A stretch of DNA of 34,137 nucleotides from positions 1-34,137 of IMG/VR virus record IMGVR_UViG_3300009034_001919, one strand, 5' to 3'. This stretch comes from a virus. A program made the translations under genes and the position numbers. Under the pieces are notes generated by a model that was not told the DNA's origin, did no database searches, and saw nothing but the letters and a program-made list of their open reading frames with translations. Within the stretch, counting starts at the first letter, position 1. Each line of letters begins with the position of its first letter. Below are positions 8,663-34,137 of the stretch, piece after piece.

Positions 8663-8907
8663 TGTCCCATCTCCTTAAGCTCCCTTTTGACCTCCTTCGG
8701 ATATCTGTCACGTTTACGCTGTATCTGTCCAGAGAGTGTGTTCTCCTGCTTCAACTCCTCCGAGACTACACCTAATATCTTGAGGTCGAATAGGATTGAC
8801 TTTCCCTCATTGGGGCTGATTCCAGCTATCTGTGAGGGTCTCACGCCGTAAGCGCGACCGATTGAATCAAGCATCAGGGCTGCCCTCCTCATCGGGAAAG
8901 GATTCAT
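8653..8907 (-). CDS. Tail assembly chaperone, downstream (T-like) frame
   Basis: 84 residues: two helical regions ending in a highly basic tail (QIQRKRDRYPKEVKRELKEMG). It overlaps the preceding chaperone frame by 41 nt and the tape measure by 10 nt. In most tailed viruses this position holds a C-terminal extension made by ribosomal frameshifting (lambda G/GT). The frame is offset +1 relative to the upstream gene, so a fusion would need a +1 or -2 shift. An independent ATG at 8907 also exists, with GGTGA 11 bases upstream, so separate translation is possible. Confidence 0.65.
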   Translation of the reverse strand: MNPFPMRRAALMLDSIGRAYGVRPSQIAGISPNEGKSILFDLKILGVVSEELKQENTLSGQIQRKRDRYPKEVKRELKEMGQWR

Positions 8908-9238
8908 CTGTCATCTCTTCACCCATCACTCCGCTCAGATCCATAAGCTCCGTTAGAAGGTCTATTACATCTGAGAAGAATATTTGCTCTGGCTTTATCT
9001 TCGGCGCTATGATGTTCGGCTGTATGATGTGCTCTGAGACGACGACAAGGTTCTCCTTAACGAAGTTCACAAAATCCGTTCTATCGACAAAGCCATCATC
9101 AGGCCAGATGCTCAGCCAGTAGACCATTGACGAGGCGTTCATGGCGTTGATGTGGAATACTGCGCCGCTGGTGACTTTGAACTTTCTGGTGGTGAGCTTC
9201 ACGTAGTCCTCAGGTGTTGAAACTGTCAACTCTTCCAC
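8867..9238 (-). CDS. Tail assembly chaperone, upstream (G-like) frame
   Basis: 123 residues, acidic at the C-terminus (EEMTDESFPDEEGSPDA), with the compact alpha-helical character usual for tail assembly chaperones that bind the tape measure during tail assembly. The start is GTG with a strong GGGAGGTGA ribosome-binding site. It sits immediately before the T-like frame and the tape measure, the canonical order. The family is inferred from order, size and overlap rather than from a recognised motif. Confidence 0.65.
   Translation of the reverse strand: MEELTVSTPEDYVKLTTRKFKVTSGAVFHINAMNASSMVYWLSIWPDDGFVDRTDFVNFVKENLVVVSEHIIQPNIIAPKIKPEQIFFSDVIDLLTELMDLSGVMGEEMTDESFPDEEGSPDA
8894..8902 (-). 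other. Candidate frameshift site in the tail chaperone overlap
   Basis: In the upstream frame the codons read TCC TTT CCC followed by GAT. Slipping forward one base at CCC-G would move the ribosome into the downstream frame. The shift must occur between the last downstream-frame stop (TGA just upstream of ATG 8907) and the upstream stop at 8867-8869, so the window is only about 45 nt. Confidence 0.35.
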
Positions 9239-9262
9239 TCTCTCTCACCTCCCTATCCTTTA

Positions 9263-9787
9263 TCACCATTTAATTCCCACCCTTCGTCCTGAGCGTTTCA
9301 CCAAGTGTTCAACCCGTCCATTCACGAATCTGGCGGTGTCTCTGAAGATGTGGAACGCCCTTGTGCCTGGATGGTCGAAGAAGTATCCATACGCTTTTCT
9401 ACCACCGTAACGTGTACCATACCCCCTCGTTCCATGTGCGGTGGCGACCTTCGCTTTAACTAACATGGGATAGGCGGTCATCAGTTTATCACTTGTGATT
9501 GGATGTGCCTCTGTTCCCCTCTCCACGGCTCTGGCCCATTGATGATCATTGTAAAGCTCGGACACTATTTGCCAACGTGTTTTCAAAACCCTCCGCCACT
9601 TAATGTGCCCTCTATAACTGTCTCCGCTAGGCATTCTGGTTTTTGAAAGGTTAAACGAGTATGTGCGACTGACATTCTTGAACTGGCGCATCAACTCCTC
9701 CTTCCAGTCATCTATGGCTTGTTCTAGGTCTCCGAAGAATCCGCTAAGCTTGTCTACTGGTATCTCTGCGTGGACTTGGAAGGACAT
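9263..9787 (-). CDS. HK97-gp10-like neck/tail completion protein
   Basis: 174 residues. The middle RAVERGTEAHPI and the later FFDHPGTRAFHIFRDTARF match the pattern of HK97 gp10-like proteins (an ERGT loop, then HPGT and a helix near the C-terminus), which take part in head-tail joining. It lies after the tail tube gene, whereas the usual order places it before the tube, so the order here is slightly rearranged. The ribosome-binding site is GGAGTG. Confidence 0.7.
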   Translation of the reverse strand: MSFQVHAEIPVDKLSGFFGDLEQAIDDWKEELMRQFKNVSRTYSFNLSKTRMPSGDSYRGHIKWRRVLKTRWQIVSELYNDHQWARAVERGTEAHPITSDKLMTAYPMLVKAKVATAHGTRGYGTRYGGRKAYGYFFDHPGTRAFHIFRDTARFVNGRVEHLVKRSGRRVGIKW

Positions 9788-9806
9788 CTTTGGGCACTCC
9801 GAGGTT

Positions 9807-10844
9807 CTATAGGATGTTCGCTAGGGCCGTGTAGCTTGAAGTGTCGTTTATCACCGTCACTTGGCAGGCGTGTCCGCTGAGGGCGTGGTAGTTTCCTCGG
9901 AAGTTCACTGTCTGTGTGATTCTGTCCCTGCCAGTCACCGCGGCTTCGGAGGCGGTGTAGTGTGTCTCAGGGATGCTGAACTGCACCATCGAGGGAACGC
10001 CGGACGTAAGCGCGTCGCCGTGAAGGGCGAACAGTGTTATAAACGAGGACTGTGTACCCGTCGCGGTTCCGCCGACGATGCTGAGGAACCGTTCGTGCTC
10101 ATCCTCGCTGTCGAAGGTGAACTCCATGCTGCCGTCAACCGTCGCGAAGCCGTGAAGCGTCTGAGCTGCCAGATATTCTTTGCCGAGTACGTAGTGGTCG
10201 GTGTCGTAGCCTCTGCCGAGTCTGAGTCTGAATGCTTCGATGGTCGGTGCCGTGGCTAGTCTGTCGGTTCCCCCTATGCTTCCACTTGTCATGTCGGCGA
10301 AGGTGAGGTATCGTTGCCCCGAGTACATATGATAGTCCGGTATCTTCGCGGTTATCAGGTTCTCGGTGCCGTCTCCCGTGACGGATACGGTGCATCCGAC
10401 GACTTCCCTCGCCCGCGCCTCTACCTCTATGGCGGTGATGAAGCCTCCGTCGAACTGTCTGTCCTTCTCTATGCCCACGCCCTTGTAGATGGTGAATGGT
10501 GTTGGACCTGGACCTGAAGTGGTGACTGCTTCAGTGCCTCCGAAGGTGAACACATGGCTGTAGCTCGACGTTACTGCGCTGGTTGTGGGGTCTCCAAGGA
10601 AATACACCAATAGTTTGGGCCACTGGTTGGGATCCATTAGGACTTCGAAGTCTCCGCCAGCCCTGAAGAATCCCTTGACATGTGTATCGGGCGTCCAGTA
10701 TTCAACGGTTTCGGGGTAATAGTCCTCTCTGGTGGTCTCGATGGATTCGCTTAGAATCTTGAAGTAGACGATGTCCCCAGATAAGGCGGTGACAGTGCTA
10801 TAGCCTGAGCTTTCCTCCCCTAATCCAATGTACTTGCTTGCCAT
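9807..10844 (-). CDS. Major tail tube protein
   Basis: 345 residues, strongly beta-rich with Thr, Ser and Gly, starting MASKYIGLGEES-GYSTV as in many phage tail tube proteins. The central FRAGGDFEVLMDPNQWPKLLVYFLG segment is typical of the tube domain. The C-terminal region may carry an added Ig-like or decorating domain. A dedicated promoter and an AGGAG ribosome-binding site precede it, as expected for a protein needed in many copies. It lies between the tail terminator and the chaperone/tape measure block. Confidence 0.8.
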   Translation of the reverse strand: MASKYIGLGEESSGYSTVTALSGDIVYFKILSESIETTREDYYPETVEYWTPDTHVKGFFRAGGDFEVLMDPNQWPKLLVYFLGDPTTSAVTSSYSHVFTFGGTEAVTTSGPGPTPFTIYKGVGIEKDRQFDGGFITAIEVEARAREVVGCTVSVTGDGTENLITAKIPDYHMYSGQRYLTFADMTSGSIGGTDRLATAPTIEAFRLRLGRGYDTDHYVLGKEYLAAQTLHGFATVDGSMEFTFDSEDEHERFLSIVGGTATGTQSSFITLFALHGDALTSGVPSMVQFSIPETHYTASEAAVTGRDRITQTVNFRGNYHALSGHACQVTVINDTSSYTALANIL

Positions 10845-10891
10845 CTCTCATTCTCCTATTCATTTCAGGCTAGAACACTGTTGTTCAATGA

Positions 10892-10904
10892 TTTATAGTT
10901 TATA
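10892..10904 (-). promoter_or_regulatory. Archaeal TATA element before the tail tube gene
   Basis: The minus strand reads TATAAACTATAAA in a 66-nt gap of otherwise tightly packed tail genes, about 48-60 nt before the ATG. A start site 25 nt downstream would leave a leader of about 30 nt containing the AGGAG site. This fits a separate strong promoter for the tail tube. Confidence 0.5.
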
Positions 10905-10910
10905 GGGGTG

Positions 10911-11339
10911 TCACACGTTTCGAGTTATCTCAACCTGAATCTCGATGTAAGCAAAATACTTGACGAAGCTCGGTAACTCACTCATTGAGTAATCCACGGA
11001 TGCGATTTCCGAGTTCAACACGTAGCTACTTCCCAGCGTTCTATCCGACTCTACCTTGTCAACTATCTCCCCAACGTATTGAACCATCTCATTGAGGTTC
11101 GCCTTCGTCCCCATTCCCTGATGATGGATGACCGCCCTGAATGTGACTACATGTCGTGTTTCCTTCGGACCGATGGCGGATACGTCATCCCTGACAATGC
11201 GGAGGAGGCATGTCGGATGGGTGTCGATGGTTTTCACATAGTCGAAATGAACTGTGGTGGCGACGAAGCTGGAGGTAGCTTCCACGGCGGTCTCAAGCTT
11301 GTCAATCACATCATCGAGAACTGTTTCATAACTGACCAT
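10911..11339 (-). CDS. Tail terminator / tail completion protein
   Basis: 142 residues with an N-terminal helix (VLDDVIDKLETAVEA), beta strands and a second long helix (NLNEMVQYVGEIVDKVESDRTL), the alpha/beta layout of lambda gpU-like tail terminators. The C-terminus is a strand pair (YFAYIEIQVEI). Its place between the adaptor and the tail tube agrees with this. It starts in a TAATG overlap with the adaptor stop. Confidence 0.65.
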   Translation of the reverse strand: MVSYETVLDDVIDKLETAVEATSSFVATTVHFDYVKTIDTHPTCLLRIVRDDVSAIGPKETRHVVTFRAVIHHQGMGTKANLNEMVQYVGEIVDKVESDRTLGSSYVLNSEIASVDYSMSELPSFVKYFAYIEIQVEITRNV

Positions 11340-11878
11340 TAAATCCCCTGCATCGTCGCGATGGGAACTTCAGTTGGAAAGTGGTCTTTCTCAAGCTTCT
11401 CACAACGCTGCGCTATCCACGCTAACTGGGCTTCATACTGCGTGTTCACGTAGCTGTTGATATCCCCGCCCGTGAAGGATGCGAGGTTCATAGGGTTGCC
11501 GCTGAACAGCCGTGCCAGTATCACCTTCTCACAGACTTTCAGCGTCGCGTATTCCTGCAATATCTTGGAGTCGAGGTTGTAGCCGTAAACCCAGCCGCCA
11601 GTCACCCTTCGCCTGCCCGCTGTGGGGATATCATGGTAAAAGTAGAAGGCGACACCATCGTAGTTCCCCGTCTTATGGTTGTACCTCTTGACAGTCATAA
11701 AATCAGTTTCGTCAGCGCCGAATAGGTTGTCCTTGCAGATGAGTATCTCCCAATCAGGCGTGTCGCTCAACGTCGCCTTGTTCCTGTAGAAGCTTCCACT
11801 AGTCACGGATACGACGGGCTTGTACGGGGGAACGACCACTCTACCATACTGAGACTCAGGCAACCCTCTAGAAACCAC
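11339..11878 (-). CDS. Head-tail adaptor, C-terminal part (second frame)
   Basis: 179 residues from GTG 11878. The early YGRVVVPPYKPVVSVTSGSFYRN matches the strand normally found in the middle of head-tail connector (adaptor) proteins. The rest includes helices (ILQEYATLKVCEKVILARL) and a C-terminal helix. The frame is -1 relative to the preceding frame 11803-12099, which carries the typical N-terminal half. Either the full protein is made by frameshifting, or the gene is broken, or the two halves are separate proteins. The true start in this frame is uncertain; the frame is open upstream to a TGA near 11980. Confidence 0.6.
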   Translation of the reverse strand: MVSRGLPESQYGRVVVPPYKPVVSVTSGSFYRNKATLSDTPDWEILICKDNLFGADETDFMTVKRYNHKTGNYDGVAFYFYHDIPTAGRRRVTGGWVYGYNLDSKILQEYATLKVCEKVILARLFSGNPMNLASFTGGDINSYVNTQYEAQLAWIAQRCEKLEKDHFPTEVPIATMQGI

Positions 11879-12108: not shown

Positions 12109-12411
12109 CTAAAGTGTTCTCCCAACATGGATTGCATAGGTTTCCGTTTCCACCAGTTCACTTCCCTTCACCAACTCCAACTCATAATTGTATTTTCCCG
12201 TGTATGGAAAGTCCCCGCTTTGAACCGTGTAGTAGATGTAGCCAAGTGAGCCGCTGGCGATGGTGACTGAGCCACTTACCAGCAATGTAGTTCCCTGTTT
12301 GACCTTAAGGGTGATTGTGTAGCCCGACACGTTCTTAGCCGTGCCGTCGGCATCCTTCACATTCCAGAATTGGTTGAAGGCCCTATTCCATTTCTTTACG
12401 GACCAGCTCAC
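12109..12411 (-). CDS. BppU-like baseplate or fibre N-terminal domain protein
   Basis: 100 residues, all beta. The pattern W-V-K-DADGTAKNVSGYTITLKVKQG, GSLGYIYYTV and GKYNYELELV resembles the N-terminal Ig-like domain of BppU baseplate proteins that bind receptor-binding modules. The start is GTG, overlapping the stop of the LamG gene by 4 nt and preceded by GGTGA, so the two proteins are probably co-translated and may act together. Confidence 0.55.
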   Translation of the reverse strand: MSWSVKKWNRAFNQFWNVKDADGTAKNVSGYTITLKVKQGTTLLVSGSVTIASGSLGYIYYTVQSGDFPYTGKYNYELELVKGSELVETETYAIHVGRTL

Positions 12412-13220
12412 CTAAGCTTCACCTCTAAATCCCTTCTCAGGAGAGAGACATCTAAATCCTTTCTTAAAAGGTTTATATCCAAGTCCTCTCTTAAGAGATT
12501 TACGTCCAAGTCTCTTCTTAAGAGGTTTATGTCCAAATCTTCTCTTAATAGTTTAACGTCTATCACTTCATCTCTGTCAAAGTCTGAGTAAATGGTGTTG
12601 TACTCGTCAAGCACCTCGTCGGCACTAAGAGCGCGGTCGTAGATGCGAACCTCGTCGATGACACCATCCAGTGGTTGATCTACTAATGATTTATGGATTC
12701 CTAAAACATAGTCTCCGGTTGCTCCCTCATCTATAGCCTGTGTATTCTGTGCTTTGAGGTCTCCATTGATGTAAAATATTAGGTCTGCGCCATCGTAGAC
12801 TAGAACGATGTCATACCATTCACCAGCAACAATGGTGACTCCTGACGAGAAGTCTGCTCCACTTAAGTAACTGCATATGTTATCGTCAGTCTTACGCCCA
12901 AAAAGGATTGATCTTCCTGTTCCCGCTCCATCTTGTTGAGAAATAAGGATTTGATCGACAACGTTTACAGAAGGCAGTGTAGTCCACTTAGCCTTCATGC
13001 AGATTGTAAAGGCGTCGATGATGTCAAGGCTGGAATCCCAAGATATTATCACATAGTCGTTTGTCGTGAAGCTCAGGGCCTTCCCAAACTTTCCACCCGC
13101 CCAAGATGCGCCTGTGATGGTGCCGTCGTTTCCATACCCTGATTTATCGACAGCCGTACTCCCCGTTCCCTCGTCTAGGGGAAGGCGAAGAACTAAACCA
13201 TCAAGTATCACGTGAATCAA
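12408..13220 (-). CDS. LamG/concanavalin-type lectin protein with C-terminal 9-residue repeats
   Basis: 270 residues. Residues about 8-205 form a LamG-like jelly roll: LVLRLPLDEGTGSTAVDKSG, then NDGTITGASWAGGKFGKAL, GEWYDIVLVYDGADLIFYING and the closing IDEVRIYDRALSADEV. Known members bind carbohydrate. From residue 221 come five 9-residue repeats of the form D-(V/I)-x-L-L-R-x-D-L and a partial sixth. It probably decorates the virion or tail and binds glycan. It opens the neck/tail unit. The frame begins with TTG; GTG at 13211 is an alternative. Confidence 0.8.
   Translation of the reverse strand: MIHVILDGLVLRLPLDEGTGSTAVDKSGYGNDGTITGASWAGGKFGKALSFTTNDYVIISWDSSLDIIDAFTICMKAKWTTLPSVNVVDQILISQQDGAGTGRSILFGRKTDDNICSYLSGADFSSGVTIVAGEWYDIVLVYDGADLIFYINGDLKAQNTQAIDEGATGDYVLGIHKSLVDQPLDGVIDEVRIYDRALSADEVLDEYNTIYSDFDRDEVIDVKLLREDLDINLLRRDLDVNLLREDLDINLLRKDLDVSLLRRDLEVKLR
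12426..12560 (-). repeat. 27-bp tandem repeat coding for a 9-residue motif
   Basis: Five head-to-tail units of 27 bp encode DVKLLREDL, DINLLRRDL, DVNLLREDL, DINLLRKDL and DVSLLRRDL, followed by EVKLR. The units are similar but not identical in DNA and appear AT-richer than the LamG part. Spacing of Leu and Asp every nine residues suggests a helical or solenoid stalk. Confidence 0.8.
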
Positions 13221-13262: not shown

Positions 13263-14342
13263 TTACCACGGATTGTTCTCATATACGATTCTTTTATAGA
13301 GGGCTTCCATGCGTTCTGCCATGGCTTCCTTTGAGAAAACCTCAGCACGGCGCCTACAGTCAAGCGGGTTGATTGTATCAACGCGTTCAACTGCGCTTGC
13401 CATTTCTTCCATGCTATCACATATGAATCCTGATTTTCCATCCTCAATTATCTCAGCCACTGCTCCGTCCCTCAACGATATCACGGGGGTTCCCGATGCA
13501 AGTGCCTCGCAAAAATGAAGCCCGAATGGTTCTCCGAAGGAGGAACAGGCAATTAAGGCTTTGGCGTTTTGAAGATATTTTACCTTATTTTCATGACTTA
13601 CCTCCCCTATGAATGTGGCATATTGGGATTGATTGCATTTCTGTCTTACTTCTTCAATGTACTGAGTGTTGGTTACGAAGCTGGTTGCCCCTACGATGTC
13701 AATGGGAGTCTTGGACTTCTCCGCTACTTGGATGGCGGTGTGTGGTCCTTTGATTGGGTCTATGCGTCCGAGGAAGAGAAGTCTCTCCGATTTCTCTTTC
13801 ATAAAGGGGTAATCACCGAGTTCAATCCCGTTGTGACAGCATTCAGAGGAAATGGGCGGGGCGTTGCCATTATACCCTGTGTCGTATAATCTCTTCATAT
13901 GTTCAGAGATGGCTATGAGGTTCAATTTAAAGGGAGAGGGTCTAGCCCACCAAGGGTTTTTTCGTTCCCGATCTAACCAATAATTGATGTGACCATGATG
14001 CGTGTGTGTGCAGAGGATCGAGGGATTGCGGGTCTTGGAAGCATAACAAAACGAGAACCAATCATGGCTATGAACAATGTCGAAATTATCAAGGCATTTA
14101 TCATATTTCATCCACCTTTCCCTTTCTGCCTCAAGCCAATTCACTCCGAGGGTGTTTATTCCCTTACCTACCTTATAGAGATACCCGCCTTTTGGAGTGG
14201 AAGATTCATCAGGTGCAAAGGCAACAACCTTATGACCGCGTTCAATAAGACCACACCATAAATTCCAGACAATTAATTCTAAACCACCATACCTCATTGG
14301 AGGCAACTTAAAGAAAGGAGTTGAAATAAGGGCAATCTTCAT
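13263..14342 (-). CDS. Glycosyltransferase family 4 (GT-B fold)
   Basis: 359 residues. The N-terminal MKIALISTPFFKLPPMRYGGLE is the usual GT4 opening with the Gly-rich loop, followed by CTHTHHG. The C-terminal half has LLFLGRIDPIKGPHTAIQVA and the EX7E motif (GEPFGLHFCEALASGTPVI) that binds the sugar-nucleotide donor. It transfers a sugar from a nucleotide donor to a growing glycan in the cytoplasm. Donor and acceptor cannot be told from the sequence. It is the last gene of the cassette and overlaps the endonuclease gene in an ATGA junction; GAGG precedes its ATG. Confidence 0.88.
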   Translation of the reverse strand: MKIALISTPFFKLPPMRYGGLELIVWNLWCGLIERGHKVVAFAPDESSTPKGGYLYKVGKGINTLGVNWLEAERERWMKYDKCLDNFDIVHSHDWFSFCYASKTRNPSILCTHTHHGHINYWLDRERKNPWWARPSPFKLNLIAISEHMKRLYDTGYNGNAPPISSECCHNGIELGDYPFMKEKSERLLFLGRIDPIKGPHTAIQVAEKSKTPIDIVGATSFVTNTQYIEEVRQKCNQSQYATFIGEVSHENKVKYLQNAKALIACSSFGEPFGLHFCEALASGTPVISLRDGAVAEIIEDGKSGFICDSMEEMASAVERVDTINPLDCRRRAEVFSKEAMAERMEALYKRIVYENNPW

Positions 14343-15052
14343 TGGTTTTTTCCTCTTTTGTTCAGCTTGGAAATTTGTTTTTGAATTTTATATTCCTTTT
14401 CTGTGTAGGGCATCCTCCAACGATTTAATCTGCTCTCCAAAAACTCTAGTAGTAGTTTTCCCTGCTCTCTTTTTGCGGGAAGATATTCTATGATTTGAGA
14501 AAGTAAAGCATAAGCCTCTGGGATGCTTCTCACCTCCCACTTCCTTACGGGCTTGTTATTAGTTCCTCTGTGCCAGTTTGTTCGCTCACAACGACCATAT
14601 CCAGACTCTTTTTTTAGACGTTTTAGTAGTTTAAAATTGGTATTACCAATTGAAATCGCGGGGTGCAGGGAACTTACCCCCCGCTTGGTCTTTTCTTGAT
14701 AGTGGAGCATGATTGATCCCTCCCATGCAATACTCCAAGATAGAATGTGTTTCCACAACTCGCTAAGTCGTGGGAACTCTTTTTGTTTCCTAGATTGCGT
14801 CTCTCTATAGATTCCATGTCTATTGGCTTGAAGTTTTATGGCGATCCAAGTTCTTCCAGTAAAGGCTTTCATTATTTCCTCTTTTGTACCCCGCGGATAA
14901 AGCCGTCGAAGTTTATCTATTTTTTCCCTGGTCCATATATATCTCATACCACACCAGTTCTCGGTTTGGGTATGTATCTTTCTATTTATTAAGTGTTTTG
15001 TGGTTTTTGGAGAGCCCCCAAAGAAACTTGTGGTAAGGATGCCGATTTTCAC
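14339..15052 (-). CDS. LAGLIDADG-type homing endonuclease behind a glycosyltransferase-like leader
   Basis: 237 residues from GTG 15052. Residues 38-80 form a DNA-binding helical domain (WTREKIDKLRRLYPRGTKEEI, then GRTWIAIKLQANRHGI). Residues about 100-215 match the LAGLIDADG fold: SWSIAWEGSIML, with the acidic residue in WEGS, then PAISIGNTNFKLLKRLK, KPVRKWEVRS and IIEYLPAKREQGKLLLEF. Only one motif copy is visible, so it would act as a dimer. Residues 1-16 (MKIGILTTSFFGGSPK) instead look like the start of a GT-B glycosyltransferase. An internal ATG at 14947 with GGTG upstream could be the true endonuclease start. The segment looks AT-richer than its neighbours. Confidence 0.75.
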   Translation of the reverse strand: MKIGILTTSFFGGSPKTTKHLINRKIHTQTENWCGMRYIWTREKIDKLRRLYPRGTKEEIMKAFTGRTWIAIKLQANRHGIYRETQSRKQKEFPRLSELWKHILSWSIAWEGSIMLHYQEKTKRGVSSLHPAISIGNTNFKLLKRLKKESGYGRCERTNWHRGTNNKPVRKWEVRSIPEAYALLSQIIEYLPAKREQGKLLLEFLESRLNRWRMPYTEKEYKIQKQISKLNKRGKNQ

Positions 15053-15156
15053 TTATTTACCTCCTTTATTTCATGACCGCAGTTTGAGCATTTATAAACT
15101 TCTCCAAACTCGAATAAGGTGTTGAAGTCACACTCGGAGCACTTTCTACTTCTCAT
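15049..15156 (-). CDS. Tiny zinc-ribbon protein
   Basis: 35 residues with CSEC at residues 6-9 and CSNCGH at residues 24-29, a complete minimal zinc ribbon. It overlaps the preceding glycosyltransferase by 8 nt and the next GTG start in a GTGA junction. Its last codons carry GGAGGT, the strong ribosome-binding site of the next frame. Function unknown; it may bind a partner enzyme of the cassette. Confidence 0.65.
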   Translation of the reverse strand: MRSRKCSECDFNTLFEFGEVYKCSNCGHEIKEVNK

Positions 15157-15931
15157 TTTCTGAAAGTGTTCCCCGTTTATGTTCTTTCAAGTTGAAACAG
15201 TTCTCTCTTTCAATCAATTTTCCCATGCCTCCTTTCGCGGCTTGATGCCAGAGCGCACCACCCCAACCTCGATGATCAAGGTGATATCCCGCATTCTCTT
15301 TATCAACATAGATGTTGCCCTTGACCTCTTTAATTTTCTTTGCGAGAGGAACTATTTGATTTGCCTTGTGATAATCATAGCATTCAGGAAAGCCATTTGT
15401 CTCTAGTAGAAAGGGGTAAGGAAACGCCGCGTAGAATAACTCAAATGGGCTTCCTACCCAAAGTGGACCCCCTTTGGGTTGACCCGTCCAGTGTTTTTCC
15501 CAGATTGATAGAGGGTGATCCATGTGTTCACCCTTTGGACATGGAGAATAGAAGGCACTAAGGGAAATCATGGTCATGTCTCCCCTTTCCTCGCTACATA
15601 AAGCGATTTTTTTCAAGCTGTCTGGAGGAAGCCAAATGTAGTCGTTTAATAAGACGACAACGTCTCCCCTACTTAAGAGAACACCAGTGTTATAGGCGTT
15701 GATAAGGTTAAATGGTAGTTCTGGAAAACATTTTTTCTTTGAGGAACCAACGTATGAGGTTGGAATATCGTGTTTCTCAAGGTAGTCGTAGACGGCATCC
15801 CGTCGTTCGGTCATTTCATCCACGCAGATAAGTTCATAGTCCGTAAATGTCTGACCCTTTAATCCATCTACCAACACATCGTAGCCCCCAGGTCTGTATG
15901 TTAAATATACCAAACTAATTCGTGGTGGCAT
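15146..15931 (-). CDS. Glycosyltransferase family 2 (GT-A fold)
   Basis: 261 residues. ISLVYLTYRPGGYDVLVDGLKGQTFTDYELICVDE is the GT-A nucleotide-binding opening. NAYNTGVLLSRGDVVVLLNDYIWLPP holds the region of the usual DxD motif, here ND-Y rather than a perfect DxD. Further on come LLETNGFPE and a YHLDHRGWGG motif with His residues near the metal site. It probably adds a hexose or similar sugar in the cytoplasm. It overlaps the pyruvyltransferase gene by 17 nt. Confidence 0.8.
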   Translation of the reverse strand: MPPRISLVYLTYRPGGYDVLVDGLKGQTFTDYELICVDEMTERRDAVYDYLEKHDIPTSYVGSSKKKCFPELPFNLINAYNTGVLLSRGDVVVLLNDYIWLPPDSLKKIALCSEERGDMTMISLSAFYSPCPKGEHMDHPLSIWEKHWTGQPKGGPLWVGSPFELFYAAFPYPFLLETNGFPECYDYHKANQIVPLAKKIKEVKGNIYVDKENAGYHLDHRGWGGALWHQAAKGGMGKLIERENCFNLKEHKRGTLSENEK

Positions 15932-16802
15932 CCAAAATCTCCTGCACCATTTCCTTCAAACCAGTTCTAACTCCGTCTATTCGATATTTAAGGTTTTTCC
16001 TTTCATGGCTCCAGTTTTGCATAAGATGACCGTACACTTCAATTATGTTGTCTCCAGATTTAACCCAGTGAGGATACTCAATGGTAGAGCACACGTCCTC
16101 CACCTTTCTAAACTCCATCTCCACAGCAATCGCGGGAATGTTATTTATTAACGCGATACAGAAGGGATGAAGTCTGTTACCAAACCAGAAGGAGGACTTA
16201 CATATTCCATAATAGGCTTCCTCTAAGGTAAACGGAAAGCCCTTATCGCCTTGAGCCGAAGAGAACTGGATAAGCATTGGTGGTTCTCCCCTAAGTTCTT
16301 GTATGGTATCAAAGGCGTGATCCAACCACGCCGAATCCACGTTCCTATGGGGTCTAAATACACCGCCCATAACTGGGTTCTTATCGAGTTGTTCGTCCTC
16401 AAACAGGAAAATAGGATCTCCACATACACTTATCTTAGATGTATTAAACCCTGCTTCATCTAATCGCTCTAGACTCACTGCACCCCTAACCGCTATTAGA
16501 GATGCCCTATCCCACAAATACCGTAGTCCCCCCATGTCTTGGAACTCTCTCACGCCAGTCCCAAAGATAACAAACGGCGTTTCACTAGACTTTAAATAGT
16601 TTTGCAATTCGGAGAATGGATGACCAAGAAGGCTTCCTCCGCCCAAGATGACCAAATCCAAGTCTTTATAGCTTCCGTGACCAAGTGGCAGGATTTGCCA
16701 TTTTATCTCTGCGTGTCTATTGAACTCGTCTTGAATTGCCTTGGCGAGAAACTCGTCACTATAGGCATTAAACCCGTAGAAGCCCACCAGACCTATCTTC
16801 AT
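15915..16802 (-). CDS. Polysaccharide pyruvyl transferase-family protein
   Basis: 295 residues. MKIGLVGFYGFNAYSDEFLAKAI opens a GT-B-like fold. DLDLVILGGGSLLGHPFSELQNYLK, the FGTGVREF stretch, AVRGAVSLERLDEAG and SFWFGNRLHPFCIALINNIPAIAV are the signature segments of the family that transfers pyruvate from phosphoenolpyruvate onto sugars as ketals. Such groups give surface glycans negative charge. Some members of the fold have other roles, so the substrate is uncertain. It starts in an ATGA overlap with the methyltransferase gene. Confidence 0.8.
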   Translation of the reverse strand: MKIGLVGFYGFNAYSDEFLAKAIQDEFNRHAEIKWQILPLGHGSYKDLDLVILGGGSLLGHPFSELQNYLKSSETPFVIFGTGVREFQDMGGLRYLWDRASLIAVRGAVSLERLDEAGFNTSKISVCGDPIFLFEDEQLDKNPVMGGVFRPHRNVDSAWLDHAFDTIQELRGEPPMLIQFSSAQGDKGFPFTLEEAYYGICKSSFWFGNRLHPFCIALINNIPAIAVEMEFRKVEDVCSTIEYPHWVKSGDNIIEVYGHLMQNWSHERKNLKYRIDGVRTGLKEMVQEILDATTN

Positions 16803-17494
16803 GACCCCACCTTCTGAAGGTTAATTGTTATCACAGTGAAAGGTTTTACAATCCCCGTTTCGGTTGAGTGCCCGATTACTGATGTTGAGGGGGGATTCAT
16901 CCATTGTAATCCTAAATCATCACAAATTGTTTTAGTTGTCACCATGGAAATGGCGCTACCATCCTCAGACAAGTCAGTGAATACATCGAAGGTGAAGCAA
17001 ATAGACCCCCCCATTTTCGTAACACGTATAACATCCTCTACATATCCTCCATATGGTGGGTTAAGGTGCTCTAGGACGCTTACACAGGCAACCTTGTCGA
17101 AGAAACAGTCTCTATAGGGAAGCCCCAACTCTATGTCCCCCAAATGAAAAGTGACGTTATTCACCCCTAGTTTGCGCCTTCCCACTTCCAAGAAGGGAAT
17201 CACAGCTTCATCTATGTCAAAGTTATATATCTGCTTGCACGCTCTCGCCAAGATGAATTGAAGTGGTCCCCATCCGCTGGCTAGGTCTAGTATGATGTCG
17301 TTCTTCTTAGGGCTCAATATGTTGTACGCCCAAGGATACTCGAAGATCCTGCTCCAATGAAGAGATGCATAATATTTAGGGTCATGATATTCCATGGTTT
17401 CCTCTATCTTCAGCAATTCATGTATTACGCGGAAGAAGTATGGTCGACACGCGGTCGCGGGGTCATACCACCCGATGAAACCCTTTACTCGCAT
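16799..17494 (-). CDS. Class I SAM-dependent methyltransferase
   Basis: 231 residues from ATG 17494. IILDLASGWGPLQFILARA is the SAM-binding motif I, FDIDEAVIPFLE carries the acidic residue for the ribose, and VACVSVLEHLNPPYGGY is motif IV/post-IV of the Methyltransf_11 type. It probably methylates a sugar or lipid-linked glycan, though the acceptor is not visible. The frame is also open to a GTG at 17506, but that GTG lies inside the GAGGTG ribosome-binding site, and the same GAGGTGCATAG context precedes another ATG in this window, so 17494 is preferred. Confidence 0.8.
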   Translation of the reverse strand: MRVKGFIGWYDPATACRPYFFRVIHELLKIEETMEYHDPKYYASLHWSRIFEYPWAYNILSPKKNDIILDLASGWGPLQFILARACKQIYNFDIDEAVIPFLEVGRRKLGVNNVTFHLGDIELGLPYRDCFFDKVACVSVLEHLNPPYGGYVEDVIRVTKMGGSICFTFDVFTDLSEDGSAISMVTTKTICDDLGLQWMNPPSTSVIGHSTETGIVKPFTVITINLQKVGS

Positions 17495-18588
17495 AATTCT
17501 ATGCACCTCTTCTTGAAGGCATTATAATTTTCGTCTTCGTCTGGGTAGAACCACTCTCCACTTGGCGCGTATCTAGAAATCGTTACCTTATCTGGCTTCG
17601 TTCTTTTTATGAATTCCAGAGTCTTCTCTCGGTCCTCATCTTCTTCCCTAGGAAAACCATACATTAGATACACCTTTGCAACTATACCAACATCTTTAAT
17701 CTTCCATATGGCATCTTCCAGAACCTTAATGGTTGTCTGCTTATTCATCAAATCCAAGACTCTCTGAGAGCCGCTTTCAACTCCGATGTGAACTTCCCCG
17801 CATCCAGCCCATCTCATCCGTTGTAGAAGATACTCGTCGAGGGCATCAGCCCGAGTTATGCAAACCCATGTAGCGTCAATTCTCCTGTTCCTCTTTAGTT
17901 TACAAAATTTTATTATGCGTTTACGGCTGAGGGTGAAGATATCATCCACATACCTGAAGTGGGTCACATCAAAATGATTTATCACGTCGCTCATTTCCAT
18001 GACCATTCTCTTTGGGGAGTGAAAGCGTACTTTACTGGTTTGGGGAATCTTAGTGCAGAACGAACAGTTATATGGACATCCTCGTGATGATATGAGCGTG
18101 GTGGCGCCAGTGCCACATTCCTGTCCATGAATACCAGTGTAGTCCACAACATTTGAAAAGAGGTGTCTCGCTGGGAGAGGTAGTGAATCTAACTCCTTAA
18201 TATATCCCGCGTCTATGATTGGTTTGTTCAACTCTCCACAGACTATGTCGCTGAACGCATGTTCTCCCTCTCCAACTATGACGTGATCACAGCCAGTGTC
18301 CTGTAGAACTTGATTTGGGTAGAGAGATGGATGGATGCCCCCTAAAACCACCTTTCCCCTTTCCATTAACCTAATCGAAGTTGTTCTTGCAGAGGGATAT
18401 GTTGCCGTAACCGCTGTGACTCCATACACATCTGCATCGAGGATTCTGGGCGATTCATTCACGTCTGCAACTGAAACAGAGTGCCCTTTTTCCTCTAATA
18501 CCGCGGCGATGTAGGCAAGTCCTAGTGGGAGATATGCTCTTGGTTGTCTCAGTTGTTTCTGGAGGGGAACCACTAAGACGACATTCAT
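17485..18588 (-). CDS. B12-binding-domain radical SAM enzyme
   Basis: 367 residues. The N-terminal 1-130 is a cobalamin-binding Rossmann-like domain (LPLGLAYIAAVLEEKGH, then VVLGGIHPSLYPNQVL, HVIVGEGEHAF); the classical His ligand for B12 is not evident. The radical SAM core follows with CPYNCSFC (C171, C175, C178) binding the 4Fe-4S cluster, then EVHIGVESGSQRVLDLMNK and YLMYGFPREEDEDREKT. Relatives methylate or rearrange unactivated carbons in cofactors, antibiotics and lipids. In this cassette it may methylate a sugar or polyprenol carrier. Activity needs anaerobic conditions and host-supplied cobalamin, suggesting an anaerobic host. It overlaps its neighbours on both sides. Confidence 0.85.
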   Translation of the reverse strand: MNVVLVVPLQKQLRQPRAYLPLGLAYIAAVLEEKGHSVSVADVNESPRILDADVYGVTAVTATYPSARTTSIRLMERGKVVLGGIHPSLYPNQVLQDTGCDHVIVGEGEHAFSDIVCGELNKPIIDAGYIKELDSLPLPARHLFSNVVDYTGIHGQECGTGATTLISSRGCPYNCSFCTKIPQTSKVRFHSPKRMVMEMSDVINHFDVTHFRYVDDIFTLSRKRIIKFCKLKRNRRIDATWVCITRADALDEYLLQRMRWAGCGEVHIGVESGSQRVLDLMNKQTTIKVLEDAIWKIKDVGIVAKVYLMYGFPREEDEDREKTLEFIKRTKPDKVTISRYAPSGEWFYPDEDENYNAFKKRCIELCE

Positions 18589-19127
18589 GTCTTATACGCC
18601 TCTATTATCATATCCCAATAACAGCCTGGAAGGGGTTTAACCATCACCCTCGTAAAGCCTACGTCCCTAAATAGTTGCTTAGCATAATCTGGGGAAAAAG
18701 CGGATTTATGATAGTTCCCCGTCTCATCCCATGTACCCTCTTGCCCCCCATATAGAAGAGCATTCTCCTCAATTCCTATTTTATTTCTTCTAATTATCTC
18801 CTTACATTGCTCAAACGTGTTAGGACCGATAAGAACGACAGCCCCATTTGGTTTGAGAATTCGATAGATTTCCTTGGCAAAGTGAGAACTGTATCTCCAT
18901 CCTATGTGTTCTATAACCATGTTGCCGAACACCCCGTCGTAGCTTTCGTCCTCTATTGGAAACGTCTTCTCCAAGTCGGCTACTATGTCCACCGTCGGAA
19001 GCTCCCTGAAGTCCACGTTAGGTCTGAAAATTGGGGTCTCTCCACCGCCTAGTTCCAGTATCTTCTGGTCGAGTTCAAATGGGGTAGTATAGCTCTGCTT
19101 CGTCGTAGGGATGATTATGCTCACCAT
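18585..19127 (-). CDS. SAM-dependent methyltransferase paralogue
   Basis: 180 residues. QKILELGGGETPIFRPNVD is motif I; PTVDIVADLEKTFP, YDGVFGNMVIEHIGW and EIYRILKPNGAVVLIGP are the following Methyltransf_11 elements. ALLYGGQEGTWDETGNYHKS is shared with the first domain of the preceding gene, so the two arose by duplication. It starts 7 nt inside the previous gene with no ribosome-binding site, directly after an A9 run. Its translation may depend on coupling or on frameshifting from the upstream gene. Confidence 0.82.
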   Translation of the reverse strand: MVSIIIPTTKQSYTTPFELDQKILELGGGETPIFRPNVDFRELPTVDIVADLEKTFPIEDESYDGVFGNMVIEHIGWRYSSHFAKEIYRILKPNGAVVLIGPNTFEQCKEIIRRNKIGIEENALLYGGQEGTWDETGNYHKSAFSPDYAKQLFRDVGFTRVMVKPLPGCYWDMIIEAYKT

Positions 19128-20377
19128 TGTTTTTTTTTAGATTCGTCGTCCAATCCTTGCAAATAGCGTTGGTAGGGTTGTAGTTCTTGTACTTCTTCCT
19201 GAACTGTGATAACTGGTTTTCTGACATAAACTTTTTCTGGCTCGCCTACAAGCACCCTATCTTCTGCCTTTACATGAAAATCTGGTTTCTCAGCTTCAAT
19301 ATACAGGGAGTGGTCAGGAAAGCTGTCCACGGTTTCTCTCATAATCACGTCTGAGCGGGACTTTCCATATTCTGGGTTAGTTATATTGATGAAGCCGACA
19401 CTCTCCATTTTCTTGGCTAACGACCAAAAGTTGTAAAGGGTCTTATGTCCCATGAATGCTAGTCTAAAGAAAGCGTCTGCGTTATCCTCAGCATTCTTAA
19501 CTTCAAACTCTTCGGCATAGGTTTCCTTGAATATACCCAGCTTCTCTATGAACGTCTCCAAGTCAGGCGTGGACAGCCTTATCACTCCGTTGGGCTTCAA
19601 TATTCTGAATGATTCACATAGAAATTGACTTCCCTCTTCCCGAGTCAAGTGTTCCACGAGGTGATGCGCCGTAATCAAATCCACAGAGTTATTCGCCCAT
19701 CGTAGGGGTTTGGTTACGTCACAGTATTCAAAGATGTGTCCTTTAGCTTCCACTGCCTTTTTGATGTCCCCACGGATGTCGCAGTTTATCCACCCGTCGC
19801 CTGTAGTCACAGTGAAACTTCCGAAGTTGATTTTTGTCAATATATCCGATTTGTCGTCAACCTTATACGCGGACACTATCATGTCCTGTGATTCGGGATT
19901 TGGATAGTCAATTATCTTCACGTCCTTGAACCCCGCCTCATTCAACAGCTTCGTAATGAACGGACGGCTGAAGAAGACCTTATGTGTGTCATCTGAGTAG
20001 CCTTGTCCCCCGTATAGGAGATTACTATCATCAAGGTTAATCTCCTCAGGGGGCTTCTGAAGTATCTTCTTTATCTGCTTGTAGGTGTCGGGAACCACGA
20101 ACACTGCTGGCGAGCCTGGTTTCAACACGTTATAGCACGACTTGAAGTATCCCTCGATTTTACGCCATGACATGTGCTCAGCATTCCAATTGCTGAATAT
20201 TCCGTCGAACTTACCGAGGTCGGAGAAGTCACCCTCAAGGTCGCGTACTATGTCCACGGTGGGAAGTGCTCTGATGTCCACGTTTGTTGTCTTCAACCCT
20301 TGAACTCTTAGAGGACGTTCCCCCCCGCCGACTTCGAGTATGTGGTCGCCCTGATTGAAGGGTAGTTGGAAACTCAA
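19121..20377 (-). CDS. Two-domain SAM-dependent methyltransferase
   Basis: 418 residues. Domain 1 (1-175): HILEVGGGERPLRVQ as motif I, PTVDIVRDLEGDF, EHMSW and LLYGGQGYSDD. Domain 2 (about 180-330): INFGSFTVTTGDGWINCDIRG, DLITAHHLVEHL and FRILKPNGVIRLSTPD. Both are class I methyltransferase folds. Domain 1 is paralogous to the next gene, while domain 2 is a different subfamily. The last 70 residues are charged, ending DDESKKKQW, where the three Lys codons form an A9 run. Acceptor substrates are unknown; glycan methylation is most consistent with context. Confidence 0.82.
   Translation of the reverse strand: MSFQLPFNQGDHILEVGGGERPLRVQGLKTTNVDIRALPTVDIVRDLEGDFSDLGKFDGIFSNWNAEHMSWRKIEGYFKSCYNVLKPGSPAVFVVPDTYKQIKKILQKPPEEINLDDSNLLYGGQGYSDDTHKVFFSRPFITKLLNEAGFKDVKIIDYPNPESQDMIVSAYKVDDKSDILTKINFGSFTVTTGDGWINCDIRGDIKKAVEAKGHIFEYCDVTKPLRWANNSVDLITAHHLVEHLTREEGSQFLCESFRILKPNGVIRLSTPDLETFIEKLGIFKETYAEEFEVKNAEDNADAFFRLAFMGHKTLYNFWSLAKKMESVGFINITNPEYGKSRSDVIMRETVDSFPDHSLYIEAEKPDFHVKAEDRVLVGEPEKVYVRKPVITVQEEVQELQPYQRYLQGLDDESKKKQW
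19130..19138 (-). other. A9 slippery run at the methyltransferase gene junction
   Basis: In the upstream frame the mRNA reads TCT AAA AAA AAA CAA TGG TGA. A -1 slip on A-AAA-AAA continues as ACA ATG GTG AGC, which is the frame and start of the downstream methyltransferase. The site is 7-15 nt before the upstream stop and would yield a fused three-domain protein. Polymerase slippage on the run could have the same effect. Confidence 0.4.
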
Positions 20378-21435
20378 GATGTCAGCTCCGCGTATAGCTT
20401 CTCATATTTCAATTCTATCTTCTCCCAGCTATTTTGCTCCGCCGTCTTTCTAGCGTTCATCGCCATATACTTAAGGTTGTCAAAGTTGTTTTTAAGGTCA
20501 TCTATACACGTAGCCAACGCGTCCACATCTCTGACGGGAAAGGTGAATCCACTACGTCCATTTTCGATTAACTCGGCTGAACCCGCCCCCACTGAACCAA
20601 CAATAATTTTCCCATAAGCCATTGATTCAAGAAGGGTTAAACCAAAGCCTTCAGAGACGCTTGGGTGCACATAAACGGAGAATAAAGGCATTATTTCATC
20701 TAGGCTGTTGAATCCACCGTAGAGGTGATATTTGCCTCCTGTAGCCCATTGTTCTAAGATAGGCTTCATTTGTTTGGAACCTCGTCCGAAGAATATGAGT
20801 GTTGAATCATCATAGTTTAGTTTACTCCATGCCTCCACAAGATAACGAAGTCCCTTATCAGGTCCGAGTGCCCCTATGTAACCGATGTTGGTAAACTTCT
20901 TTGGGTAGTTCACCTGTTCTGGTAAACTAACTCCGTGTCGAATGACTTCTATTCGTTTAGGCTTGATATTCTCCCTTATCCACTTTGCACTTCGACTGGA
21001 CGGCGTTATCACGGCGTCCGCCTCTTTCAGATGACTCCACAGGGCTTCTCGGAGGTATGGATCGGTGTTATGTTTGAAGGGGTAGGTTCCTTGTCCGTAC
21101 ATTCGCTCGTGTTCCTCTATGCTCTCCTTCAAATTGTGGGCGGGGCAGTTGACCACATACTTCTTTGGAGTGAGCCTGTTGAGTATCGCTGTCGCGGGGG
21201 AGCAACTAAGGTGAGCTATATCAGGGTTTTTAACTTTTAAAAGGAGAGATGCAAAGTAGTCATACAGAAACGGATTGAATGGATAATACTTGTCTATCTT
21301 TTCACCTATCTCTGCCCTCGTAATAACCTGGTATAGGAGGGTGGGCTTCCTTAATGCCTCTATTTCATGGTGACATACTAATCCAGCGCCTGTGGTAGGG
21401 TTAACGTGATCGAAGGTTACATAGACCGAGGATAT
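20374..21435 (-). CDS. Glycosyltransferase family 4 with an apparent AUA start
   Basis: About 353 residues. The C-terminal half is classical GT4: IGYIGALGPDKGLRYLVEAW, LIFFGRGS and SEGFGLTLLESMAYGKIIVGS with EX7E. The N-terminal GT-B half is encoded upstream of the first GTG (21156): VTFDHVNPTTGAGLVCHHEI, then KPTLLYQVITRAEIG, and ending KNPDIAHLSC. That half has no stop and no ATG, GTG or TTG. An ATA at 21433-21435 stands seven bases after GGAGG and three bases after the stop of the preceding small gene, so it is the likely start. Role: transfer of a sugar in the cytoplasm. An ATGA-type overlap links it to the next gene. Confidence 0.75.
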   Translation of the reverse strand: MSSVYVTFDHVNPTTGAGLVCHHEIEALRKPTLLYQVITRAEIGEKIDKYYPFNPFLYDYFASLLLKVKNPDIAHLSCSPATAILNRLTPKKYVVNCPAHNLKESIEEHERMYGQGTYPFKHNTDPYLREALWSHLKEADAVITPSSRSAKWIRENIKPKRIEVIRHGVSLPEQVNYPKKFTNIGYIGALGPDKGLRYLVEAWSKLNYDDSTLIFFGRGSKQMKPILEQWATGGKYHLYGGFNSLDEIMPLFSVYVHPSVSEGFGLTLLESMAYGKIIVGSVGAGSAELIENGRSGFTFPVRDVDALATCIDDLKNNFDNLKYMAMNARKTAEQNSWEKIELKYEKLYAELTS

Positions 21436-21437
21436 TG

Positions 21438-21572
21438 TTATTCCTCCTCAAGGTCATATAATAAACCTAGTCTCTTCAATTCCTCTCGAATCACATTTCT
21501 AACGCTCCAAGTAACAAAATGTGATACCAACAATGCACAAACTATTACCACCATAATGAGAATCCAATCCAT
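21438..21572 (-). CDS. Single-span membrane micro-protein in the sugar cassette
   Basis: 44 residues. One N-terminal transmembrane helix (WILIMVVIVCALLVSHFV) is followed by a charged amphipathic helix ending LYDLEEE. GAGGTG six bases before the ATG supports the start. Its last codons GAG GAG GAA TAA provide the ribosome-binding site for the next glycosyltransferase, so the pair is translationally coupled. It may tether cassette enzymes to the membrane. Confidence 0.65.
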   Translation of the reverse strand: MDWILIMVVIVCALLVSHFVTWSVRNVIREELKRLGLLYDLEEE

Positions 21573-21575
21573 TCA

Positions 21576-22400
21576 TTACACCTCTGGAACCCTGACATTT
21601 CCACCAGTTTCTATGACGAGCATTCCCGCGTGTGAAAGGCGCACATCTGCCAGACACCAAACTCGGTGTCCCAGCGTCTTTGCCTGAGTCATCATCCAAA
21701 AATCCTCTGACATGCTATCCGGCGTCTCCCAGTGAAAGTAAGAGTATTCGCCAGCCTCATCCCTTGGAACTATTTGTTGAAGGTCTTCAAAAACCTTTCG
21801 TCGCATAAGGCAGAATCCAAGACCTGCCACTGAAACGGTGAACCAGTTTCCCGACCATCCGCCGATGTGGACGAATCCTGTCTTCTTCTCAATTACTCCT
21901 TTTTTACACTTTGGACACGGCGTGCCCCACTCTGGTTGAGTTTGATGCTCCTTGTTAGGGAAGTCGGTCTTGCATTCTCGGCAGTACCTTCTCTCCCCCC
22001 TGTTCCAGATGGCGTAGTTGAAGCCGTGCTTCTGCTTCGCACGGTACAACCCCGTGACTATACTCTCCCCACTCTGTTCCATAGCCTCGTAGAGGACACG
22101 CAGGGCCTGATTGGGGTCACGGTTCTGCGTCTCGACTACGTTGTCGCCATCCACCCACAGAAAATGTGTGGCGTCGGTGGCTAAAGCCTCCCTTACGAGA
22201 GTGTTACGGGCTACAGGAAGTGATGGCACGCGGCAGAGGAAGTGAAGCTTCTTACACCAGTCAAGGGGTCGGGCGACAAGGGGAATCCACTGCTTCTGCA
22301 CAAACTCCGCGAGCCATCCATTTCGGTGAGGATATAGGATGGCAATAACTGGAGGGGCGGCGGCGGTTGTTTTCACTGGTGGGGGTAAATGCCATGCCAT
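21576..22400 (-). CDS. GT-A type glycosyltransferase with zinc-ribbon insert
   Basis: 274 residues. FLWVDGDN (DGD at 84-86) is the metal/nucleotide-binding motif, and SVAGLGFCLMRRKVFEDL with SEDFWMMTQAKTLGHRVWC and LSHAG complete a GT-A glycosyltransferase. Between strands, residues 140-165 carry CREC and CPKC, a zinc ribbon inserted in the catalytic domain. VPSLPVARNTLVREAL resembles GT families common in viruses. It is the first gene of the sugar cassette. There is no ribosome-binding site, but a TTAAATA box stands at -25, so translation is likely leaderless. Confidence 0.8.
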   Translation of the reverse strand: MAWHLPPPVKTTAAAPPVIAILYPHRNGWLAEFVQKQWIPLVARPLDWCKKLHFLCRVPSLPVARNTLVREALATDATHFLWVDGDNVVETQNRDPNQALRVLYEAMEQSGESIVTGLYRAKQKHGFNYAIWNRGERRYCRECKTDFPNKEHQTQPEWGTPCPKCKKGVIEKKTGFVHIGGWSGNWFTVSVAGLGFCLMRRKVFEDLQQIVPRDEAGEYSYFHWETPDSMSEDFWMMTQAKTLGHRVWCLADVRLSHAGMLVIETGGNVRVPEV

Positions 22401-22424
22401 ACGGGTATAGAGGTGGATTAGATG

Positions 22425-22431
22425 TATTTAA
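22425..22431 (-). promoter_or_regulatory. TATA box of the sugar cassette
   Basis: The minus strand reads TTAAATA 25-31 nt before ATG 22400, preceded by an A-rich stretch that may serve as the TFB-binding element. The gap is 72 nt and lacks a Shine-Dalgarno sequence. The same TTAAATA spacing is found before the gene at 34037. Confidence 0.6.
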
Positions 22432-22472
22432 CTATTTTTGTACTTCGGTTCAAAGGATGATTGTGTCTATGG

Positions 22473-23072
22473 TTAGTCTAGTTGGAACGTGCTTTTGAAG
22501 GCTGCGCGGCTTCTGGCTTGTCCCGCGCGGGTTAATGCTTGGATAAGGGGTTCAGCCACTTCAACTGCCACTGGTGTGTAGGTAGCATAGATGCTGGCTG
22601 TCCAGTCGTTTAAACCGCCGACAGTACCATAGGGATCCTCTGCCCCATCATCATATTCATCCTCCGCCCTCAAATCAAACTGATTGGTCCCTCCAGCATC
22701 AGAAGAGATGAACGTGCTGTAAGCCACAATTTGATGAACCGTATCATCTCCAACGTGAAGAGTCAGCCAATAATCGCCAGCCGTAAGAGAAACCGCCGTC
22801 GCAAACGTGAAGTCTCCCCAGTCTCCGCTCGTCCAATCAACCAATACCTCATTCGTCTCGCCCTTCAAGGCTCCGGGGGAACCAGCATCATCCGCATATA
22901 TGTCACACTTACAGTACCCATCATAGGAGTTACCTGGATCTCTGTAAATGTGAGCCGTAATCTTTGATACCAAGCCAGCCTCAGATAAAGTGAATTTAAC
23001 GGCCGACTTCGTATCTCTAGACGTGAACCTTGTGATTCCAGTCTCGATGCTCGTATTTCCAAAGGTCGCCAT
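22473..23072 (-). CDS. Beta-sandwich virion protein (decoration or fibre)
   Basis: 199 residues. ITRFTSRDTKSAVKFTLSEAG, VSKITAHIYRDPG, CKCDIYADDAGSPGAL and GDYWLTLHVGDD make a jelly-roll-like domain often seen in surface proteins, followed by an Ala-rich basic C-terminal tail (LTRAGQARSRAAFKS). It probably binds capsid or glycan. The ribosome-binding site is GAGGAT. It is last in the head/accessory unit before the sugar cassette. Confidence 0.6.
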   Translation of the reverse strand: MATFGNTSIETGITRFTSRDTKSAVKFTLSEAGLVSKITAHIYRDPGNSYDGYCKCDIYADDAGSPGALKGETNEVLVDWTSGDWGDFTFATAVSLTAGDYWLTLHVGDDTVHQIVAYSTFISSDAGGTNQFDLRAEDEYDDGAEDPYGTVGGLNDWTASIYATYTPVAVEVAEPLIQALTRAGQARSRAAFKSTFQLD

Positions 23073-34037: not shown

Positions 34038-34055
34038 TCCAAAGGATGATAGGCA

Positions 34056-34136: not shown

Positions 34137-34137
34137 C

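Follow-up and report, generated by a model that had tools for sequence, protein, structure and literature searches.

A variable glycan cassette between the head and tail genes of a probably archaeal group of tailed viruses

We analysed positions 1 to 34,137 (hereafter the window) of the IMG/VR virus record IMGVR_UViG_3300009034_001919, which has 34,138 bases. At 13263-22400 on the minus strand, between head and neck genes, lies a cassette of four glycosyltransferases (GTs), a PS_pyruv_trans protein, four methyltransferase domains and a B12-binding radical SAM enzyme. Our preferred explanation, held with moderate confidence, is that this late operon of a probably archaeal tailed virus directs the synthesis of a virus-specific glycan and its attachment to the virion. 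A first-pass annotation of the sequence had proposed a virus-encoded glycan cassette acting on the virion or on the host surface; the cassette itself is strongly supported, the virion is the favoured although unproven target, and the host surface is less favoured.

Virus-encoded GTs and modifying enzymes are linked to virion genes. From 29125 to 3480 on the minus strand, the gene order is protease, major capsid protein, small head/neck genes and the cassette (22400-13263), followed on the same strand by a LamG protein, neck genes, a minor tail protein (phrog_290), the tape measure and tail genes. Scans identified five relatives, G001 (IMGVR_UViG_3300009034_000052), G002 (3300033064_004529), G003 (3300009034_002976), G004 (3300031578_003644) and G005 (3300038422_000050). 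Since relatives carry the cassette at the same spot with a different middle, the comparison suggests that every virus puts a glycan of its own on its particle.

Genes of the cassette and of the satellite sugar locus

The gene inventory of the first-pass annotation was borne out by Pfam, phrog and model comparisons. Its zinc ribbon and 44-aa membrane micro-protein are both present, as is the overlapping, operon-like order between head and neck genes: most adjacent genes overlap by 4-22 nt (4, 7, 4, 22, 4 and 17 nt in one run). One gene had not been listed, the homing-endonuclease-type gene, which is not a sugar enzyme. In order of transcription, the cassette comprises:

21576-22400, minus strand: GT-A-fold glycosyltransferase with internal zinc ribbon, first cassette gene (phrog_1574, E 9e-12; predicted model)
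21441-21572, minus strand: 44-aa single-span membrane micro-protein (from sequence)
20374-21435, minus strand: GT4 family glycosyltransferase (GT4a), apparent ATA start (Pfam Glycos_transf_1, 2e-26)
19121-20377, minus strand: tandem methyltransferase, two domains (Pfam Methyltransf_11/23)
18585-19127, minus strand: methyltransferase (Pfam; separate gene, 65% identical, in G002 only)
17485-18588, minus strand: B12-binding radical SAM enzyme (Pfam B12-binding 1e-19, Radical_SAM 2e-20)
16799-17506, minus strand: methyltransferase (Pfam Methyltransf_31, 1e-13; 31% identical to a G005 cassette gene)
15915-16802, minus strand: polysaccharide pyruvyltransferase-like protein (Pfam PF04230, 5e-20, above cut-off)
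15146-15931, minus strand: GT2 family glycosyltransferase (weak Pfam match, E 9e-5, just under cut-off)
15052-15156, minus strand: 35-aa zinc-ribbon protein (CxxC...CxxC in sequence)
14339-15052, minus strand: homing-endonuclease-type gene (phrog_5046, E 8e-11)
13263-14342, minus strand: GT4 family glycosyltransferase (GT4b), last cassette enzyme (Pfam Glycos_transf_1, 2e-24)

The first GT has no Pfam match. Its predicted model (mean pLDDT 66) resembles GT-A glycosyltransferases, and the best solved match is A197 of STIV, an archaeal virus protein (E 3e-7); other viral GTs were also matched, that of Che8 lower in the list. The STIV capsid protein is glycosylated. Orthologues of this gene occur in G001-G005, and its composition in the window (53% GC) is like that of the flank. 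GT4a is 46-68% identical in G001, G002, G004 and G005. Its homologous start has no ATG, GTG or TTG; an ATA lies at 21433-21435, behind GAGGAGGA, where relatives have ATG; a point mutation, a sequencing error and a genuine AUA start are all conceivable. A strong GAGGAGG precedes this ATA on the minus strand. The tandem methyltransferase is 50-63% identical in the same four relatives, and motif I for S-adenosylmethionine binding looks degenerate in its second domain, in the relatives too. The G004 copy (L035:16658-18685) has an inserted FkbM methyltransferase domain, and that of G005 (L037:10001-11809) an additional N-terminal domain copy. The GT2 protein aligns with orthologues in G001, G004 and G005 at 31-36% identity.

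The product of 15915-16802 scores 73.1 bits with the PF04230 profile against a curated cut-off of 25.3, and stays under that of the CsaB equivalog TIGR03609 (47 of 213 bits). A sequence search for solved structures found no relative of it, and pyruvyl transfer from phosphoenolpyruvate to a sugar is a predicted function.

The radical SAM enzyme combines B12-binding and Radical_SAM domains, with the CX3CX2C motif present as CPYNCSFC at residue 171. The closest solved sequences are AprD4 (6fd2, E 6e-18) and, more weakly, OxsB; no NCBIfam equivalog cut-off was reached, the best being ApyD (128 of 750 bits). Relatives were found in 14 other viral contigs at 23-32% identity, and one in Streptomyces phage SF3. 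The earlier view that such an enzyme is uncommon in viral sugar cassettes was not supported, since such a gene lies with sugar genes in at least four other viral contigs: L004 and L005 with GT4 and other GTs, L006 with methyltransferase, GT8, NeuB, SIS and cytidylyltransferase genes, and L011 with two GT4, a GT2 and an aminotransferase. In L004 the cluster is flanked by a major head protein (phrog_29) and, at its other end, by a tail assembly chaperone (weak, E 0.001), and therefore represents a similar placement in a virus whose capsid protein is of a different family. Misclassification is possible for some IMG/VR contigs; the head protein of L004 makes its viral assignment secure. A putative pyruvyltransferase of L004 is at most suggestive, the protein having a weak Pfam hit of 5e-5, below the cut-off, with no DNA-level match at E 0.001 and no BLAST similarity to the window protein. 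In L002 (7319-11149), a 1276-aa open reading frame joins a GtrB-like glycosyltransferase part to a B12 radical SAM part. These cases suggest that B12 radical SAM enzymes recur in viral glycan clusters.

Features outside the cassette that bear on its function are the following:

22424-22431, minus strand: TTAAATAC, TATA-box-like element 31 nt upstream of the first cassette gene (conserved)
32381-33103, minus strand: RmlA-like sugar-1-phosphate nucleotidylyltransferase, satellite locus (Pfam NTP_transferase, 7e-46)
33096-34037, minus strand: RmlB-like sugar-nucleotide 4,6-dehydratase, satellite locus (Pfam)
34057-34137, minus strand: 3' end of a GT2-type glycosyltransferase, truncated at the window end (frame reads VYVHPELHSITEAVKKLIDIDKIKYP-stop)
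26240-27385, minus strand: major capsid protein, HCTV-1 type (phrog_24667, E 3e-29)
12408-13220, minus strand: LamG lectin-like protein with C-terminal repeats (Pfam Laminin_G_3, 3e-22)

The sugar-nucleotide pair proposed at 32381-34037 was recovered as RmlA-like and RmlB-like genes. RmlA relatives in G001-G004 are 45-62% identical, and the RmlB-like protein matches NCBIfam dTDP_gluc_dehyt at 6e-63, below cut-off. The truncated frame at 34057-34137 ends like the C-termini of satellite GTs in G004 and G005. A SPASM-type radical SAM gene lies between a GT2 gene and RmlA in the satellite loci of G002 (L021:6392-7441) and G001 (L025:4977-6215). Exact copies of TTAAATAC number two in the window, 31-32 nt 5' of the first cassette ATG and of the RmlB ATG, for a chance expectation of 1.0. 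The cassette box is kept as TTAAATAC in G001, G003 and G005 and as TTATATAC (one change) in G002; its distance to the gene is about equal in G001, G003 and G002, and it lies farther upstream in G005. The second copy, previously taken for a matching TATA box of the Rml pair, belongs to the last codons (DKIKYP-stop) of the upstream glycosyltransferase cut by the window end. A promoter common to the cassette and the Rml pair was therefore rejected, and the cassette box alone counts as promoter evidence. A repeat pair (22436-22475 and 34025-34064, 73%) was dismissed as one among many chance-level pairs.

The LamG gene has a low GC content at third codon positions (45.8%), like the cassette, and a similar gene also lies 3' of GT4b in G005. 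Its C-terminal repeats are about 11 residues each (LLRxDLDVN). This protein is a possible glycan acceptor or fibre.

Relatives, conserved ends and allele exchange

Capsid proteins of G001-G005 are 61-65% identical to that of the window. They were found with alignments of two to four rows, single-protein scans for the capsid protein and the pyruvyltransferase having returned no relatives. The cassette lies between head and neck/tail genes in G001, G002, G004 and G005, and G003 ends within the first cassette gene. The conserved genes are the GT-A gene, GT4a and the tandem methyltransferase at one end and GT4b, with orthologues in G001, G002, G004 and G005, at the other; an orthologous GT2 is found in 4/5. 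The middle of the relatives' cassettes holds DegT and epimerase genes and, in most of them, UGDH genes. In G001 and G005 the set is hexapeptide transferase, methyltransferase, UGDH-like, epimerase and DegT, to which G004 adds a second GT2 and a reading frame that is formyltransferase-like by eye. The G002 cassette contains an HNH gene, a fusion of GT2 with a methyltransferase-like end, an epimerase and an RGP-like GT, then a methyltransferase (65% identical to the 18585-19127 gene), a PglD-like protein and DegT. Searches of the five relatives' records with PF04230 and with the B12-binding profile gave no match, the window alone matching in both cases. On sequence comparison, the radical SAM and pyruvyltransferase genes thus belong to the variable part, and the glycosyltransferases and tandem methyltransferase to a conserved block. 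The idea that the block is conserved among related viruses holds for its ends, syntenic in four contigs and begun in a fifth; the middle differs. GT4-GT4-methyltransferase runs about 30-44% identical to the cassette ends were also seen in large viral contigs of 91-235 kb (L038, L039, L041 and L042, near 8000-11600).

The GC content falls from 51% to 45% on entering the window cassette. In every virus the cassette is 2-6 points under the head genes and, because this dip tracks each virus's own GC, a cassette at this position is probably old in the group.

Trees were compared over the 15 topologies of five taxa, with capsid plus protease as the core. The core tree pairs G001 with G002, and GT4a is compatible with it. 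GT4b rejects it (delta lnL 27.6, pAU 8e-34), and its history is recombinant on the sequence evidence. For the GT-A gene the result is borderline (pAU 0.03 for the best core tree), its own best tree being the second-best core tree. Moreover, the first ~45 nt (~15 codons) of the endonuclease frame (14339-15052) match the 5' end of G001 GT4b and are unlike the window's own GT4b, which comes next with its own ATG. In G004 a 56% identical endonuclease gene (L051:7035-7631) adjoins GT4b at the same junction, without this leader. When checked for LAGLIDADG character, the window protein gave no Pfam hit and matched phrog_5046, named HNH (8e-11); a G002 relative reads LAGLMDGDG where the window copy has a diverged SIAWEGS. 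The simplest reading would be that a resident allele of GT4b, after a cut close to its start, was replaced, its first codons being left behind. The satellite Rml genes also look mosaic, RmlB being 72% identical to G004 versus 61% for the capsid protein, and RmlA 62% to G002 versus 45% to G001. We tentatively consider, as a possibility that we would not yet prefer, a form of serotype switching: an O-antigen-like locus within the virion gene series would set the glycan coat, and alleles would be exchanged between viruses with a homing endonuclease cutting near the GT4b start, changing coat chemistry (amino-sugar versus pyruvylated and C-methylated) in one recombination.

Host, glycan target and rival explanations

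The major capsid protein is 28% identical to those of HCTV-1, HVTV-1 and relatives and 26% to that of Methanofastidiosa virus vir519, whose portal is matched by a portal of this virus group. Relative G002 encodes a Rad51/RadA-type recombinase (Rad51 3e-72 versus RecA 3e-9). Together with the TATA-like box, these archaeal relationships indicate that the host of the group is probably archaeal. Scans of genome contigs for host assignment gave no match. Rfam gave no match, and no tRNA was found. Divergent from the protease gene, a plus-strand gene (29142-29882) encodes a sulfatase/phosphoethanolamine-transferase-like protein (ADHGEMLGEKGLYLH) that is kept in G004 (51%) and G005 (63%); its structure model was discarded for low quality (pLDDT 48).

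In the mechanism that we favour, the RmlA/RmlB-like pair would produce an activated 4-keto-6-deoxy sugar, and the soluble GT-A, GT4a, GT2 and GT4b enzymes would build up a short chain on a virion protein itself, within the cytoplasm. Candidate acceptors are the major capsid protein, the LamG protein and fibre-like proteins adjoining the cassette. Methyltransferases would cap hydroxyls, the pyruvyltransferase would add a ketal, and the B12 radical SAM enzyme would perform C-methylation or another carbon-centred change on a sugar. The substrates, the order of action and the virion as target are inferred, and glycan variation might alter particle recognition. Searches of eight viral records, with positive controls, found no STT3 oligosaccharyltransferase (PF02516; control archaea positive), Wzx-type flippase (Polysacc_synt, PF01943), integrase or thymidylate synthase-type hydroxymethylase. 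No multi-span membrane protein was seen among the window proteins tested, and the glycosyltransferases lack membrane spans. The lack of flippase, oligosaccharyltransferase and integrase matches favours cytoplasmic glycosylation of a virion protein; the late operon and the span-free glycosyltransferases likewise favour the virion as target.

Several points weigh against this explanation. The records may be fragments, which makes such absences weak evidence. None of the cassette proteins tested reached an NCBIfam equivalog cut-off, and for none of the enzymes does a named close relative settle the substrate. Glycan, virion and host are predicted from genes, and with a single N-x-S/T site in the major capsid protein, N-linkage is less than obvious. 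Finally, viruses of methanogenic and methanotrophic archaea are proposed to use such O-antigen genes on the host surface (PMC9723712). Here the cassette would rebuild an S-layer or lipid-linked glycan through host lipid carriers and AglB, blocking superinfection or changing adsorption. The nearby sulfatase-like gene fits this proposal, as does the action of CsaB-family pyruvyltransferases on cell-wall polymers. However, the cassette genes sit within the late structural series, their GTs have no membrane spans, and no record matched a flippase, oligosaccharyltransferase or integrase; we regard a host-surface role as rather doubtful.

The other explanations carry far less weight. A mobile island that travels passively with the homing-endonuclease-type gene and gives the virus no glycan function could account for the endonuclease gene at the GT4b junction in the window and G004, and for the HNH gene and second LAGLIDADG-type gene of G002. 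Yet intact enzyme reading frames, and end genes that retain 45-68% identity in most of the group, suggest selection and make a passive island unlikely. Sugar hypermodification of viral DNA is slightly less credible still: DNA is a possible substrate of viral GTs (Pyle et al. 2024, cited in PMC12619734), but the eight records lack a thymidylate-synthase-type hydroxymethylase, the gene mix (pyruvyltransferase, RmlA/B, hexapeptide transferases, DegT) is typical of glycan loci, and the cassette adjoins head genes. Misassembly of a host segment into the contig, to which the GC drop from 51% to 45% might point, is ruled out by synteny, since position, order and conserved end genes recur in four other contigs, each with a 2-6 point GC dip. 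The first-pass annotation had named a misassembled host segment, or the lack of any link between these genes in related viruses, as grounds for abandoning its proposal; given the synteny in four contigs, neither applies.

Comparison with known systems

HCTV-1/HVTV-1 (Druskaviridae) and vir519 (Methanofastidiosa) share the capsid protein family phrog_24667 with the window, and vir519 a similar portal. Their capsid proteins are just 26-28% identical to that of the window, however, and searches of window proteins against vir519 and against the head-tail region of HCTV-1 gave no cassette match. Bacterial O-antigen and capsule loci have conserved end genes, a variable middle, lower GC and recombination, features that the cassette resembles. 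Unlike them, it lies in a virion gene series and no Wzx flippase was found, Wzy not having been searched. It differs from an archaeal N-glycosylation (agl) cluster in that no AglB/STT3 was found in the eight viral records.

For viruses of methanogenic and methane-oxidising archaea, GT2, GT4, epimerase, dehydratase and B12 radical SAM genes are reported (PMC9723712). The likeness is in GT genes and B12 radical SAM enzymes in viruses of anoxic archaea; those genes are reported as auxiliary and read as host-surface modifiers, and the available part of that source describes no head-tail cassette with conserved ends. Chloroviruses encode GT and methyltransferase domains with which they produce methylated capsid glycans, PBCV-1 having methylated sugars on its capsid protein (PMC9614988). 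PBCV-1 is a eukaryotic algal virus, for which the available part of the source notes no B12 radical SAM enzyme or pyruvyltransferase, whereas the window has a compact, variable operon in a tailed virus. Che8-type mycobacteriophages carry capsid glycans, and in Che8 and Rita, tailed prokaryotic viruses that have their own GTs, glycans sit on the capsid or the tail tube (cited in PMC11256854 and PMC12619734). There the glycan is demonstrated; here it is predicted from genes, in a full locus with sugar-nucleotide genes and a variable middle. A partial literature search found no description, for archaeal tailed viruses, of a glycan cassette that lies between head and tail genes and varies in its middle. 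Virus-made glycan coats are known from giant algal viruses and some mycobacteriophages, and the present, probably archaeal, tailed virus group has a complete, positionally fixed, modular glycan locus with sequence traces of allele swapping, which makes it a testable case of virion glycan diversification in prokaryotic viruses.

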